Source of the DNA: Neoarius graeffei
Taxonomy: Eukaryota > Chordata > Actinopteri > Siluriformes > Ariidae
Assembly (NCBI RefSeq): GCF_027579695.1
Contig: NC_083575.1
Coordinates: forward strand, 31,165,382-31,229,381
Direction: 5' to 3'
DNA length: 64,000 nucleotides
The notes under the pieces are model-generated. The model was not told the origin of the DNA and did no database searches. It was given only the letters and a program-made list of their open reading frames with translations. This document shows positions 10,099 to 64,000 of this stretch, in pieces. Made by a program: the position numbers and the translations under genes. Position 1 is the first letter of the stretch; every line of letters starts with the position of its first letter.

Positions 10099-10377
10099 TT
10101 ACTTACAGCTTGTGAGCTGGTGGTCGATCGTCTTGACGACAGATCCAAGTATTAAAAACAACCTCGAAGCAAAACCACTACTGAAGGCACCGAAGTTTGA
10201 AAAGTCACTGTGGTTGAAATGATCAGAACACAGTATTAACGTTGCATTATACTTTGCTGGTGGTATTCCAAAGATAAATTCCAACAATTTCTTTTTCACC
10301 TCTTCTATCTTGGGCAAGAAATGCAACGTTGATGTGTTACTGCCACAAATAACACAGGCACGAACTTGTTCAGACAT
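10099..10377 (-). pseudogene. THAP zinc-finger exon, copy 2
   Basis: Starts at the Met at 10377 with the same MSEQVRACVICGS... reading, continues past the C2CH His as CSDHFNHSDFSNFGAFSSGF, and ends ...SVVKTIDHQLTSCK. The section CSDHF..SDF.N matches the normal end of a THAP core. It differs from copy 1 by a few bases over about 200, so the pair is a tandem duplication of roughly 330 bp. A third, shorter echo of the upstream part (CAGACATGTTTTCAGCTTGC) lies at 10433-10452. No later exons are seen, so I call it a relic. Confidence 0.75.
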
Positions 10378-10381
10378 GTTT

Positions 10382-10763
10382 TCAACTTACTATTAGGTCC
10401 TCTTCGTTAAATAACGCAGGCAGAAACTTGTCCAGACATGTTTTCAGCTTGCTGTTAGGTCCTCTTCGTGAGCTACTGACGAGATGGGCTCTGCTATCTC
10501 TCCTCGCGCTTAAATCCGAACTTTCTTCCCGTGGGCGGTCGCAAGCCAAGGTGGGCGAGGCCATGAATACTAATTTTCGAAGTGACGTAACTTCGCATGG
10601 CTTTTTCTGATCTGCTCGTTCTTCCGACTATTTTCTTTCATAAGCTAATACAGGGAATGGGAGTAGAATTACATTTTCAATCAGCATGCATATACAACTC
10701 GGAGTGAACTACAGTATTTCAAAAAGAGCCAGTATTAAACGTTTTTGGTGGAAGGGCACCTTT
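10382..10763. other. GC-richer flank of THAP duplication, no gene assigned
   Basis: Contains the third echo of the duplicated unit (10400-10470) and a CGCTTAAATCCG...GGGCGGTCGC stretch that could be the 5' flank or promoter of the THAP-encoding transposon on the minus strand. No coding region can be supported. Confidence 0.4.
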
Positions 10764-12526: not shown

Positions 12527-12597
12527 CTGAAGTTTGTCCTCAGGTACACTAAGCCAGTGGTTGAAAGCTTGGGACAGTTTAGTTCTGAGTTGTTTCC
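12527..12597 (-). CDS. ggps1: ggps1 second coding exon (geranylgeranyl diphosphate synthase)
   Basis: Minus strand: acceptor ...AATTTCTAG, 71 coding bases, donor GTAAGA. With the single G carried from the exon at 20041 it reads G-KQLRTKLSQAFNHWLSVPEDKLQ, matching vertebrate GGPS1 (human PGKQVRTKLSQAFNHWLKVP). GGPS1 is the cytosolic all-alpha prenyltransferase that joins isopentenyl and farnesyl diphosphate to make the C20 donor for protein geranylgeranylation. This exon is the second helix region, before the first Asp-rich motif (DDxxD), which is on the next exon and is not in view. The exon phases (73+71=144 bases) close exactly on codon 48. Sequence conservation against a background of decayed repeats shows the gene is under selection. 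The next intron exceeds 12.5 kb. Confidence 0.93.
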
Positions 12598-20040: not shown

Positions 20041-20142
20041 CTGGTAGCTGCAGCAGGTAATTGTATGGTTCTAGCAGAATCCTTTCAGTAGCTTTTTCCT
20101 CAAGATTGTCCATCCCTTGCAACTTCCACAAACAAGTAAAAT
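20041..20142 (-). CDS. ggps1: ggps1 first coding exon (start codon)
   Basis: On the minus strand a pyrimidine-rich tract ends CATGGCAG (acceptor) at 20143-20144. Then come 29 UTR bases, the ATG at 20113, 73 coding bases and the donor GTAAAAC at 20040. It encodes MDNLEEKATERILLEPYNYL then LQLP, plus the first base of Gly. Human GGPS1 starts MEKTQETVQRILLEPYKYLL, so the RILLEPY.YLLQLPG block matches almost exactly. The visible acceptor upstream implies at least one further 5' UTR exon at higher coordinates. I infer it starts near 52.3 kb, opposite arid4b. CDS in this exon is 20041-20113; the rest is 5' UTR. Confidence 0.93.
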
Positions 20143-26559: not shown

Positions 26560-27454
26560 TAGCGCTGCAGTTACTAAAAATGGTACGGTCCACAATAGGG
26601 GTGTCTGTCTGAAATCAATTTACATTAAAATGTTCCGAATGCCGAATGGGAGTTGGTTTGAATTATATATTCCTTTTCACAATATCAGAAAAAATATCGG
26701 ACCCCCCCCAAAACTTATATTTTTGTCTCTTTGGGGGGTACTGGGTCTTCATTGGGGGGTATAGTACCCCCCAGTACCCCCCGTAATTCGAACTATGGAG
26801 ACACCCTTTGTCAGCTGTCCACCAATCGCAGGCTCCCATGCCACAATGGTGGTGTGTTGATAAATATTTAGAAAATAAAAATATCATTACGAAACATACG
26901 AAACCATCAAAAGCAATTAAAAAAAAAAAAATTGTATACACATACACTGGTTAGAGGTAAGGAACATTATTCAGTGATGTCATTTATTAATAACTCCAAT
27001 TGTGGTATGAAAGTTCCAAGTTTGAGACCTGCCCACTTCAACCACGCTGCTGGCGCACGATGTCCTTGACCCTCATCGTCCTTAGCTAACTGGTATAATT
27101 ACGTCATTACGTGGACCCCTCTGAGCCGAGCTTTTCCAGTACACTTGAAGACACACGTACTTCGATGAATTATAACCAAACACAAGGAAATTTGAATGAT
27201 TTCCTCAAATTTGTTTTTTTACACTTTTATATAGTGTGTTGATGAAAAACTTAACACATTTCCTGTGAAACGAGACGAGCTACTTTAGACTGGTTCCCTG
27301 CTCTCTTAGCGCAGAATGAGCATACAAAGTCTCTGACACTTGGTAGGATTAATTTTATACAGGAACCAGTTCAGGAAAACAAGATTTTCGATAGACACAG
27401 GTGAACTTGGGTTTGACAAGGAGTCAGATGTCACAATGCATGATTTAATTTGCA

Positions 27455-44497: not shown

Positions 44498-44756
44498 ATG
44501 CCACGTAGATGTGTTTTTGGCCGGTGCACCTACACGACAGAAGGTGGACTTACGTTGCATTCATAATCCAAGAATGTTCAAACTGCAAAGATTTGGACGC
44601 GTTTTGCGAGAAATTCACAGGCACATTGGGCGCCTACAAAATGGTCTCTCCTCTGCTCTGCACATTTGACTGAAGACTCGTACGAAACCTCTGATCTGTT
44701 GAGGAGCATTGGCTATAAGCCTGTATTGAAAGAGGATGCAGTACCAACAATTAAAG
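44498..44756 (+). pseudogene. THAP domain, Kolobok-like copy 1
   Basis: The ATG at 44498 gives MPRRCVFGRCTYTTEGGLTL (Cys-x4-Cys). An indel at about 44565 shifts the frame. NVQTAKIWTRFARNSQAHWA then PTKWSLLCSAHLTEDSYETS and DLLRSIGYKPVLKEDAVPTI follow. This supplies the second half of the C2CH finger (CSAH) and the family-specific AVPT end. A full THAP domain of about 85 residues, frameshifted once. Confidence 0.88.
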
Positions 44757-44805
44757 AAAAAGAAAACTACAAGTATTTATTTTATTTATTTATTTTAAAA
44801 GGGAT

Positions 44806-44990
44806 TAGGTTGATGTGGAGCGACCTTGGGCTGAGGTGCCCTTGAGCAAGGTACCTGACCCCTGACTGCTCCCCGGACGCTTTGGTGTGGCTGCCCACTG
44901 CTCTAAGTGTGCGTGTGTGTTCACTGCTTCAGATGGGTTAAATGCAGAGGATGAATTTCACTGTGCTTGAAGTGTGCATGTGACGAATAA
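44806..44990 (+). mobile_element. SINE tail-B fragment in Kolobok copy 1
   Basis: GATGTGGAGCGACCTTGGGC ... CCCTTGAGCAAGGTACCTGA ... GTGCATGTGACGAATAATG. It interrupts the stretch after the THAP domain and is absent from copy 2. Confidence 0.8.
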
Positions 44991-50663: not shown

Positions 50664-51555
50664 GGGTGTATTCAGACCAGGATAGTTCGATAGTTCACTT
50701 GCTTTGGTCCGAACCAAATGTTTTTTTTATTTTTTCATTTTGGTGCGGTTCGCTTTCACACTGTACATTTTAGTAAGCGGACCAAAATCCGTCAACAAAG
50801 CCACGCGCCCTGAGGTCGTTCAGCTATTGGTCAGAGACGACACGCGTACAAAGTGTTAAGTTCAAAAGTAGTCACGGAGGATAGCGCTGATGAGCGCACA
50901 TCATGTGACAGTTCTGGCTCTTCACGCAAGTCACTAGTACTGCCACTTTTTGAAAGAATGTCCCTGATTTTAATGTAGGTCTGACGGAGTTTCTTCACTT
51001 TTAGCCGACATTGTTCTGGGGAGCGCGTGAACCCCTTCTCCTTCATTTTCTCACTGAATACAGCAAACACGTCGGCATTTTTGTGTGTTCTCTCCATAAA
51101 GCTCAGATATGTGGACATCTGCCCATATATCCACAAGGGTACGTGTTTCTTCCTCGGCCCACATTTGCCCCCTACTCATTTTTTGTACTCTGTAGTCTAG
51201 CCTGAATGACTGAACGACTGTTGTAAGGTTCCCTTGACAACCGAAACAGTGTTTGCACTTTGCGGTGGAGTGTCAAGACTCTGTTTCCCATAATGCTCGA
51301 CAAACGACGGAAACTCCCGAGGTACAAAAAAGCAAAACTGTCGGATTAGGTCCGGTCTGCTTTCACACCTCCAAAAGGTCCGCACCAGGGTTCCTTTGGT
51401 CCGGACCGAGTCCGACCTTGCAGCTCGGTCTCGGTCCGCTTGTTTGGTCCAGACCAGAGTTTGGTGGTTTGTATTCAGACCAACCCAAAAGGTCCGGACC
51501 AAGGGAAATTTGGTTCGTTTGGTCTGGACCAAACAACGTAGGTGTGAATACGCCC
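50664..51555 (-). mobile_element. PIF/Harbinger-type element
   Basis: GGGTGTATTCAGACC and ...GGTGTGAATACGCCC are inverted repeats. The 3-bp target TAA at 50661-50663 and 51556-51558 is typical of the superfamily. It landed in the TTAA at the edge of Kolobok copy 2. Subterminal regions are full of GGTCCGGACC/TTTGGTCC repeats. Confidence 0.88.
50831..51180 (-). pseudogene. Harbinger Myb/SANT-like DNA-binding protein, broken
   Basis: Upstream, in another frame from about 51180: MSRGQMWAEEETRTLVDIWA DVHI. Then, after a frameshift, MERTHKNADVFAVFSEKMKE and KGFTRSPEQCRLKVKKLRQT YIKIRD. The W..EET..L..IW...and RSPEQCR.K.K.LR..Y pattern is the Myb/SANT-like (Myb_DNA-bind_4) domain encoded by the second gene of Harbinger elements. 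The DDE transposase gene is absent. Confidence 0.8.
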
Positions 51556-51584
51556 TAAGGTGTCCATAATTGTAGCTGCTGCTC

Positions 51585-51828
51585 TAGTTAAATTTATTTA
51601 TCTTCAGCAACTGCTTTATTCTGGACAAGGTCCCAGTGGATCCAAAGCAGGAGAATTTACACCCATACAGGGCACACACTCATACTTAGGGGAAACTCAG
51701 TGTAGCGACATTGGGAGGAAAGAGAGAGGAAACAGGAGAACCCAGAGAAAACATGCAAATATAAACCGAGCTCAGGATCAAACCTGGGACCCAAGAAGTG
51801 ACAATTCTACCCACTGTGCCTCCTGAAG
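51585..51828 (-). mobile_element. Old, diverged SINE
   Basis: The reverse complement gives a CAGGAGGC...A-box-like head, a GGTCCCAGGTTTGATCC B box and the GTTTGCATGTTT(T)CTCTGGGTT body of V-SINE/Mermaid-like SINEs, with heavy divergence. Confidence 0.65.
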
Positions 51829-51829
51829 G

Positions 51830-52339
51830 TTTTAATGATTTTAATTTATTGATGACTTAATACAGTCTGTATCCACAGGCTGGAGTGCACGACTTCTCAA
51901 AGGGAAAATCCATTTCCTCTCAGCTGTTTGATAAAGTCACAGTTCCATTATTAACACGTGAGAGCTGTCTGCCTCAATTAAAACAATTTTATAACAATAC
52001 AATCTCCCGAAATAGTCATGGCAGAGGTTAGTAAAACTTAACAATGACGCCAAGTTTATGGAAATGGAAACTGAAATGCAAAACCATATAAACAGACGCG
52101 CTCATTTTTCAGTTGTTATGATGTAAACAGACACACCACCCACCTTGCAACACCGGAATTTATGATCCAGTTACTTCCGCTATCGAATTAGACAAGCTAA
52201 CATTAGCTAGCTCACCAAATCCAAGAGTATGTTTTAATTTTGTTCCTAAACTAATGTTTACTAGATCGCAAGAATTTTTTTTTTTAAATCCTTGGGCTCT
52301 ATGTATCCATCACTGCAACGATAGTGAATAATTTCAATC
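51830..52339. other. Unique sequence upstream of the promoter
   Basis: No repeats recognised. GGATTTG|GTGAGCTAG on the minus strand at about 52207-52223 could be a donor for a ggps1 5' UTR exon, but this is weak. Confidence 0.4.
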
Positions 52340-52680
52340 GATCCTCCCCAACCGCTGCGTGTTCTTCCCACCTCCTCCTCCAGCATCCGCATACGTCATG
52401 ACGCAGAAAGGGCGGAGACAAAGAATTGTGGGAAATGTATTACATGTAATGAACATGCCGTTTGAAATTAGGCGAACCGAAAACTCTCTTCGAACTACAT
52501 TTCCCAGAGACACCGTACCCCTGCTTTGCTTGGAATACAAAGCCATTTTCCTCCTCAGTGCATGTGGTCCAATGATATCAAGAGGACGGACATTTACACA
52601 GATAGTAACTAATAAGAGAGTAGAATGTCCATGGGGGCGGGTTTGTATATCTGTCAGTCAATTATAGAAGGGTCGCCAAA
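52340..52680. promoter_or_regulatory. Probable bidirectional ggps1/arid4b promoter
   Basis: Contains ACTACATTTCCCAG (52494-52507, plus) and the oppositely oriented AATACATTTCCCACAATTC (52424-52442, minus). Both fit the ZNF143/THAP11-type ACTACA-TTTCCCA element common in vertebrate divergent promoters. It also has AGGGCGG (GC box, 52409-52415), TACGTCATGACG (CRE-like, 52392-52403) and CCAAT at 52570. GC content is higher than in the neighbouring repeats, and no transposon has inserted. The location, between the inferred 5' exons of ggps1 (minus) and arid4b (plus), matches the head-to-head arrangement in human. Confidence 0.65.
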
Positions 52681-52850
52681 AAGAAAAGGAGAGCGACGAG
52701 TGAGATATTTCGACGGATTTGCTTAGACGTGGATACCTACCTGTTTTTGGGTGACATCAACCTTAATGTTCGAGTCTGATGTTTTCCAGATGGATTAATG
52801 CTCATGCGCTGTATCAGAATCGGGCAGCCGTGTTGAAGTGTATTCATCAG
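52680..52850 (+). other. arid4b: Probable arid4b 5' UTR exon 1
   Basis: A unique GC-balanced sequence ending TGTATTCATCAG followed by the strong donor GTAAGAAG at 52851. It contains upstream ATGs but no long frame, as expected for a UTR exon. The start is not known; the boundary given is nominal. The gene identity depends on the exon at 56985 and on linkage to ggps1. Confidence 0.5.
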
Positions 52851-52925
52851 GTAAGAAGAATTATTTTTGTAGATCAGCTCATCAAACCGTGTATTTATTT
52901 ATAAAGCAGTTAATGGCGATGTTGC

Positions 52926-52968
<43 letters not shown>

Positions 52969-53514
52969 GTGGATCAGGGAGCAAAACAGCTTACTGTACT
53001 CGGGCAAGGACAGACTTACTGTCTAAATAGCGCGCTGCTTTATGTCTTATTAAATCGCTGTATGCTTTTGCACATTTAACATTCGTGATTTTGGCCACAT
53101 TCGTCAAATGCTGCTGGTCGTATCAAGTAAGTGATCGGGGAAAACACTGCCTCATTGGAAAGCCCTTACGTAAGGGCTTCTTAATGCAGGACATCGCGGT
53201 TTAACAAAGCTCTTTCTGACCGAAAGCGTGTGTGTTTGCAGGTTGCTGGATTCGATCGAATGGAAAATGATGGTATGCGGGTAACGTTATATGGCTAAGG
53301 AGCTTATGTACTGGGGCGACGGTGACGTATTTTTTTTCTTCTCTCCTCTCATTTCTGGACGGATTGTGTTTTGTTTTGTCTTTTTCTGTTTGTTCTTCGC
53401 CATCGTTTTCCACCAAATCTCGTCGCTGGAGCAGAAATGACTTGCGACTGTGAGCTGGAACTGTTTTGGTCGTTAAGCCACAGTGATGGATGGATAGATG
53501 GATGGATAGTAAGC

Positions 53515-53551
<37 letters not shown>

Positions 53552-53782
53552 TCCTTAGTTTATCCTTCACTCAAAACGACATTGTATGGAGTGACATTGT
53601 TGCCATCAGCCTGTTGTAGTGAGTAAGGTTTATTTACATTCAGGTTAGCTGCAGTGTGAACAGGTTAGCATAAATTAAAAAAAAAAAAAAAACAAGAAGG
53701 GCTTACTTGGTTAAGTTTTATTGAGCTTGTTTAGTCGATTTAGCTTTAAGAACCTTTCTGGCGTGTCATCAGCCTCCTTATA

Positions 53783-53817
<35 letters not shown>

Positions 53818-54860
53818 CTTGTAGGCTGCACAGCCGCCAGCATTTTGTAGCCCAGTTGCTTTTCGCCACCATTTACACACCGAATACTGCTTCTCTGTGT
53901 TTATATGCTAACAAATGCGCTATAAATGTTTACCAGGTCCCCTCTTCTAAATTTTAATTTCATTTTATTTAGCAATTAACCCATTGCTTCACCCTTCTTT
54001 TTAATTTTGATCTGTAAACTGGCTATTTTAGCGAACTCACAGCTCGAATATGGCTCGATGGGAGATGTTGTTGTTGTTGTGCCTCAAAAGTGCAGCGTGG
54101 TGCTGCCGAAATAGTAATAGGAAAAAAAATAGCGGTGATTTTTTTTTTTTTTTTTTTGATTTGTCTCGAGTGTGTCTCCATTCCTCCCAGCTGGACCCGC
54201 TGAACAGAACGTTGTGTGCCACAGAAATGGCGTCACCGGCTGCAGAGCAGACATTATGCGACCTCGGGCTCTGCTGTACCGCTGTCTCGTTACAAATCCG
54301 CAGTATGAGTAAAGATCTCCGAGTCCTCAGCCTGACACGACTGCAGAAAGTTTAGGCATCGGATTTTAAAGTCCGCCTTCGCTCAGACTCTGCATGTTGA
54401 CCGAGCAGTTGCTGGTGGGAAAGAAAATCGTGATTTTTTTTTTTTTTTAGTAGGGATTGTTTTACAATCAGGGTACGCAAGCTAAAAATCACATTTAACA
54501 CTTATTATCTTCAATATCAAAAGGCTTGACTAAATAAACTTGGTTGTTTATTGTAGCCCTGTGATAGCTCTATTTACCATGCAAAAAAAATGTGGTGATA
54601 ACGTTATTTTTGGTGAATGTATGGCAATATGTGTCATACTATTTAGCAAAATTACTCGTGTCATTTAGAAAAAGTGCTTTTTTGACCACAGGTAGCTCCA
54701 AAAGGGATGCACTTACATCATTCTTTATACCATAAAACACATATTTGGTTCCGTATCATTGGAAACATAGTTAAGTTTTAATGTTGAATGCCAGTAAGTT
54801 TTCAGACTGTTTTGATCAAATTAGTAAGTAATTGTGTCAAAAAAAGTCCTCTTCGAGACA
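52851..54860 (+). other. arid4b intron 1 portion, with microsatellites
   Basis: Holds (AT)n at 52929-52966, GATGGATG repeats and (TA)n at 53485-53548, (GT)n(GA)n at 53787-53817 and poly(T) at 54140-54158. The 53200-54400 part is unusually rich in unique sequence and may contain intronic regulatory elements. The Met frame at 54227 (MASPAAEQTLCDLGLCC...) has no recognised domain. Confidence 0.5.
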
Positions 54861-55240
54861 TCTCATCTCATCTCATTATCTCTAGCCGCTTTATCCTGTT
54901 CTACAGGGTTGCAGGCAAGCTGGAGCCTATCCCAGCTGACTACAGGTGAAAGGCGGGGTACACCCTGGACAAGTCGCCAGGTCATCACAGGGCTGACACA
55001 TAGACACAGACAACCATTCACACTCACATTCACACCTACGGTCAATTTAGAGTCACCAGTTAACCTAACCTGCATGTCTTTGGACTGTGGGGGAAACCGG
55101 AGTACCCGGAGGAAACCCACGCGGACACGGGGAGAACATGCAAACTCCACACAGAAAGGCCCTCGCCGGCCCCGGGGCTCGAACCCAGGACCTTCTTGCT
55201 GTGAGGCGACAGCGCTAACCACTACACCACCGTGCCGCCC
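54861..55240 (-). mobile_element. SINE (tail A), minus strand
   Basis: A complete copy in reverse. The target duplication CCTCTTCGAGACA is perfect at 54848-54860 and 55241-55253. Confidence 0.95.
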
Positions 55241-63759: not shown

Positions 63760-64000
63760 TCTTCCTGCACTTAGATCCATCTACTGCCGTCTATCTTCTA
63801 TCCTGATCCCCAGATCTTTAACCCAGCCACATGTAAAAAGTTGTACGCCTCCATGCTCTTTCAGGTTTTCATCTGTGTGTCCATGTAGAACGATGTCTGC
63901 AGCACCAGGTAGTTTGAGATGTCGGGGAAATCAACGGATGGATAATTTTCCAACTCGTAGGAAAAATCCTTCTTTGTTAGTGTGTAAGGATCTATCCTAC
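63760..64000 (-). pseudogene. Second copy of the unknown-protein fragment
   Basis: The minus strand from 64000 reads DPYTLTKKDFSYELENYPSV DFPDIS, then NYLVLQTSFYMDTQMKT, a stop, and KSMEAY; GLKIWGSG is found after a frameshift. Colinear with 36850-37060 but retaining the NYLVLQTSFYMD segment that the other copy lost. The sequence is cut by the window edge. Confidence 0.6.

Follow-up and report, generated by a model that had tools for sequence, protein, structure and literature searches.

The closest described counterparts of this locus are mammalian housekeeping promoters that carry binding motifs for THAP11 (Ronin), for which two consensus sequences serve here as a reference: the M4 motif ACTAYRNNNCCCR, taken from PMC5006282, and the 15-bp Ronin-binding motif (RBM), printed as CTGGGARWTGTAGTY in PMC10329844. 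PMC10329844 reports that the RBM lies on average at -81 bp, just upstream of the starts of mainly housekeeping genes. Several elements per promoter are also on record (Max 3, Fntb 2, Gsk3a 11). A second group comprises the promoters with ZNF143/Staf binding sites (SBS), whose consensus is given as YWCCCRNMATSCMYYRCR in PMC5006282; there, ACTAYR is assigned to THAP11 with HCF-1, M4 is said to overlap STAF sites often, and STAF sites associate with ZNF143 and RBP-J. PMC7154149 mentions the view that ACTACA directs THAP11 and HCF-1 to the sites of ZNF143, and promoters with an SBS include bidirectional ones (reporting Anno et al., 2011). In PMC11687419, 375 of 1846 gene-assigned peaks lie at bidirectionally transcribed promoters. 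For teleosts, PMC11676430 gives 1737 divergent pairs in medaka, and the main text of that paper contains none of the words ZNF143, ggps1 or arid4b.

The window analysed here is the whole 64,000-bp stretch of DNA, and the feature under study is its core at 52340–52850. GGPS1 and ARID4B lie head to head in human, and the initial annotation had read this core as a divergent promoter shared by the two fish genes, with two opposed ZNF143-type motifs. Like the mammalian M4/Ronin promoters (PMC5006282 and PMC10329844), the core combines an exact consensus, a metabolic housekeeping gene and more than one element; it differs in having one exact and one degenerate inverted element, both of them predicted binding sites, and in belonging to a fish. 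With the ZNF143/Staf promoters it shares ACTACA and a TCCCA core in its right element as well as a divergent arrangement, but the SBS consensus is missed at 7 of the 17 specified positions on the right (52501–52518), which falls short of an SBS match, and at 4 of 17 in a stretch overlapping the left element (52417–52434, with AATACA). In common with the human GGPS1/ARID4B promoter region, the locus has ggps1 to one side of what looks like a promoter, whereas arid4b is not seen here and the likeness is one of labels and gene order. The core would resemble the bidirectional promoters of medaka if, as proposed from the sequence, it has two starts within 1 kb. The features that enter the argument are the following.

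52493–52507, minus strand: exact M4/Ronin (THAP11) binding motif CTGGGAAATGTAGTT, reading AACTACATTTCCCAG on the plus strand (motif match)
52428–52442, plus strand: degenerate inverted copy GTGGGAAATGTATTA, 3 mismatches to the RBM (motif scans)
52394–52403, strand not applicable: CRE-like palindrome CGTCATGACG made of two half-sites, a class not above background
52410–52415, plus strand: GC box GGGCGG (motif scan)
52635–52640, plus strand: GC box GGGCGG (motif scan)
52001–53700, strand not applicable: CpG-undepleted stretch, observed/expected 0.95 (composition), with other stretches equal or higher
20041–20142, minus strand: first of the ggps1 coding exons, presumably exon 2, with an acceptor before 20142 and the ATG at 20113
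12527–12597, minus strand: ggps1 next coding exon (protein match)
52144–52372, minus strand: candidate ggps1 first-exon donors at 52372, 52216 and 52144 (scores 8.2, 7.6 and 10.0)
52850–52851, plus strand: candidate donor CAG/GTAAGA (score 11.01), 52850 being the last base of a possible first exon

Two exact copies of the 11-mer TACATTTCCCA, and no more, are present in the 64 kb, at 52496–52506 on the plus strand and at 52429–52439 on the minus strand. The two arms are inverted and separated by 56 bp, with their ACTACA ends pointing inward to face each other and their CCCA ends pointing outward. On the right, the 11-mer extends to the full 15 bp of 52493–52507, which has no mismatch to either the RBM or M4. 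This exact RBM is unique in the 64 kb, where base composition predicts 0.00093 occurrences, and it appeared in none of 300 dinucleotide shuffles of the window. The shorter M4 is found exactly at three sites in the window (shuffle mean 0.48), the other two being at 26753 and 45891, and shuffling the 511-bp core 5000 times produced an exact M4 in 0.44% of cases. A further RBM-like site, ATGGGAGATGTTGTT at 54058–54072 (plus strand, 2 mismatches), adjoins a GTT repeat within the proposed right-hand intron; it is likely a chance match because shuffles yield 0.9 such sites per window.

The left-hand copy departs from the RBM in 3 of its 15 positions and from M4 in 1 of 10, and reads AATACA instead of ACTACA. 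Taken alone, it is near chance: RBM matches with no more than 3 mismatches number 16 in the window, where shuffles average 10.3 and reach 21, and SBS matches with exactly 4 mismatches number 150, where shuffles average 148.5. The inverted pair, whose members have centres 65 bp apart and the exact 11-mer in common, is probably not accidental, because such a partner is rare in flank, whole-window and core shuffles. In tests that were picked after the pair had been seen, 486 of 20,000 flank shuffles contained an RBM with up to 3 mismatches within 100 bp of the exact element, and 11 of 20,000 contained the exact 11-mer beside it; a divergent pair (11-mer Ronin core with at most one mismatch, within 100 bp) appeared in 0.5% of 200 whole-window shuffles and a pair in any order in 2.5%, and no element pair arose in 5000 shuffles of the core. 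The two opposed elements first annotated are present as the inverted pair of exact 11-mers. Overlapping the left element, at 52427–52434, is an exact TGTGGGAA, an RBPJ-type site; it is one of three in the window, and such a site is present in 454 of the 20,000 flank shuffles. A 12-bp perfect palindrome, ATTACATGTAAT (52439–52450), abuts the left element.

As to the factors involved, the right element reads as an M4 site of the THAP11 type whose ZNF143 half is poor, and six of its seven SBS mismatches lie in or adjoin its 3′ half. The M4/THAP11 label fits it exactly, the ZNF143 label badly. The left element would be classed as a weak SBS-like site. The original description of both motifs as ZNF143-type was only partly right, because the right element looks like M4/THAP11 and the left one resembles an SBS, if weakly. 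The ACTACA submotif alone is useless as evidence because it has 48 matches in the window against a shuffle mean of 34.8. We also tried the full SBS2-type pattern ACTACAATTCCCAGNATGC, which has no match in the window at up to 3 mismatches.

The remaining motifs of the core contribute less. The GC box reported there is confirmed at 52410–52415 and has a companion at 52635–52640. Of the reported CRE-like site, the palindrome is present, but no full CRE TGACGTCA was found in the core and the class is common window-wide. Because one-mismatch matches are so common in the window (104 CRE-like, 203 CCAAT-like), the CRE-like and CCAAT-like sites of the core carry little weight. Within 400 bp, the core gathers 5 of 8 motif classes, which is the window maximum; since other places in the window reach up to 4 of 8, we give little weight to CRE, CCAAT, ETS, NRF1 and YY1. 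An Rfam scan of the window returned 0 families at gathering score.

The core lies in a stretch whose CpG content is undepleted. To the left, at 51001–52000, the observed/expected ratio is 0.60, and to the right, at 53701–54000, it is 0.48; within 52340–52850 it is 0.87, and the window median is 0.47. Segments of 400 bp from the core rank in the top 8–27% for CpG count or ratio. Higher CpG is found in stretches near 28–34, 46, 55.5 and 61 kb, and those near 28–34 and 46 kb sit inside the proposed ggps1 intron 1. The CpG level of the core fits an unmethylated promoter, though it is not unique in the window.

The placement of ggps1 on the minus strand is confirmed, and the joined 48 residues of its two exons match GGPP synthase 2q80_A (E 1.7e-19). 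A good acceptor, TTTTGTTTTCATGGCAG, precedes the first coding exon, 29 bases before the ATG. Because that exon is preceded by a splice acceptor, a non-coding ggps1 exon is expected upstream. Use of any of the three candidate donors would give an intron 1 of 32.0–32.2 kb. A predicted ggps1 promoter at the core is well supported, based on the exact RBM, the undepleted CpG and a first coding exon that starts at an acceptor.

On the other side of the core, the donor at 52850 is the best between 52450 and 54600, and 0.12% of the window's 7417 GT sites score at least as high. Searches for arid4b turned up no coding exon anywhere in the window, including the 11 kb to the right of the core. A search of the window with the arid4b N-terminal coding sequence gave a best E of 1.8, and exon-sized pieces gave best E values of 0.23–0.38; as a positive control, ggps1 pieces were recovered in the exon-sized-piece search, and the arid4b query itself matches human ARID4B chain 7dm4_A (E 4.8e-99). 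The arid4b gene that had been placed to the right of the core thus yielded no coding exon up to position 64,000, and for this reason its identity rests on human gene order. In human methylation tables, a promoter region carries the label 'GGPS1;ARID4B', as does one probe (PMC4340013 and PMC7371466). The excerpts of these two papers and of PMC8709867, PMC10055147 and PMC5119954 describe no ZNF143/THAP11 site at the GGPS1/ARID4B promoter. PMC5119954 names GGPS1 only together with B3GALNT2, as a cis-trans illustration, and does not use it for its bidirectional case. A shared promoter in fish calls for caution because PMC2423431 dates the emergence of many human bidirectional promoters to after the split between chickens and fish; the same study found orthologs of 60 pairs in each of the seven other species. 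We consider a shared divergent promoter plausible, because of the inverted pair, the donor at 52850 and the human 'GGPS1;ARID4B' labels; of the joint promoter originally proposed, it is the arid4b half that is not seen in the window.

The setting of the core was also re-examined. It had been called transposon-free, and this agrees with the absence of any within-window copy: a blast of 51,800–54,900 against the rest of the window, which can detect a repeat only if another copy of it lies in the window and was run with low-complexity filtering on, gave no match before 54,451. A transposon origin of the core, having no such copy to point to, is unlikely. For the accompanying statement that the flanks are almost all transposon, the evidence covers two counts: 29.3% of the window is repeated within itself (blast), and 7 of 10 open frames scanned from the whole window match transposon-type families, Tc1-type, hAT and LTR-integrase among them, at E 0.001 or better. 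One of these seven weakly matches a reverse-transcriptase-type endonuclease, the seven also include the Myb/SANT-like and THAP frames described below, and two of the ten frames match nothing.

We propose that the core is a CpG-undepleted housekeeping promoter of ggps1, of the THAP11/ZNF143/HCF-1 type and probably two-way, and give this reading a probability of roughly two in three (0.68). Judged by the human gene order, the right-hand partner gene would most likely be arid4b. THAP11 (Ronin) is predicted to bind the right element, and the left element may be bound by ZNF143, perhaps in competition with RBPJ. Together with HCF-1, THAP11 and ZNF143 would keep a short region open. Polymerase II starting leftward would then transcribe a non-coding ggps1 first exon, and polymerase II starting rightward would produce a transcript with 52850 as the last base of its first exon. 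Intron 1 of ggps1 would owe its length of about 32 kb to transposon insertion, with the core left without visible repeat.

It is also possible, if unlikely, that the core is a one-way ggps1 promoter acting through M4, in which case the rightward product would be a short unstable antisense RNA and the donor at 52850 would be due to chance or belong to a non-coding RNA. Such a promoter would account for the want of an arid4b coding exon right of the core within the window; about nine donors in the window are as good as the one at 52850, and the late origin of many bidirectional promoters (PMC2423431) points the same way. It sits less well with the human tables that label the region GGPS1;ARID4B and with the presence of an inverted partner element, and a right-hand first intron could well exceed 11 kb in a locus this expanded. 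A start of ggps1 within what we call intron 1, in a CpG-rich stretch at 28–34 or 46 kb that was perhaps supplied by a transposon, would leave the M4 promoter to serve another gene or a non-coding RNA. Although those stretches hold the window's top CpG counts or ratios, and 32 kb is long for a ggps1 intron 1, we regard this as quite improbable: none of them has an RBM with up to 2 mismatches (only 52493 and 54058 do), and two of them only partly overlap within-window repeats. That the motif match is a functionless accident is hardly credible. The second element, the GC boxes, and the CRE-like and CCAAT-like sites occur, taken singly, at ordinary frequencies, but an exact 15-bp RBM (0.0009 expected per 64 kb) lies upstream of a housekeeping gene, in a stretch where CpG is not depleted and no repeat is seen.

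The probably two-way ggps1 promoter that we favour can be extended into a bolder proposal, which we consider unlikely: an ancient two-way ggps1–arid4b module, already present in the last ancestor that fish and human share and kept ever since, in which one element would be THAP11-optimal and the other ZNF143/RBPJ-like, the whole forming an insertion-free island. Transposons would then have stretched both first introns, by 32 kb on one side and more than 11 kb on the other.

If the favoured reading is true, the locus adds a fish example to the M4/THAP11 promoters, one that possibly drives both a prenyl-lipid enzyme and a chromatin gene and whose core stayed insertion-free while the introns filled with transposons. 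Because both points are expected from known promoters of this kind, the value is mainly one of annotation; the core offers a precise place to seek the non-coding first exons of ggps1 and its neighbour. The feature is real but ordinary, a known kind of promoter in a transposon-rich setting.

Two further observations concern the surrounding frames. Of all SBS (ZNF143) matches in the window, the best is TTCCCATAATGC at 51285–51296 (plus strand, 2 mismatches); a Myb/SANT-like open frame on the minus strand (50831–51175, PF13837) lies about 110 bp away. This match may be chance, because SBS matches at that level (up to 2 mismatches) do not exceed their number in shuffles; perhaps the frame is a transposon gene that has an SBS-like site of its own. 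A THAP domain fragment, of the same domain family as THAP11, lies at 44567–44845 (plus strand, PF05485, E 2.5e-6), and a look-alike at 10099–10386 (minus strand) has no Pfam match. The fragment at 44567–44845 is probably the remnant of a P-element-like transposon, and it is likely, but not certain, that the Myb/SANT-like and THAP frames are transposon genes.
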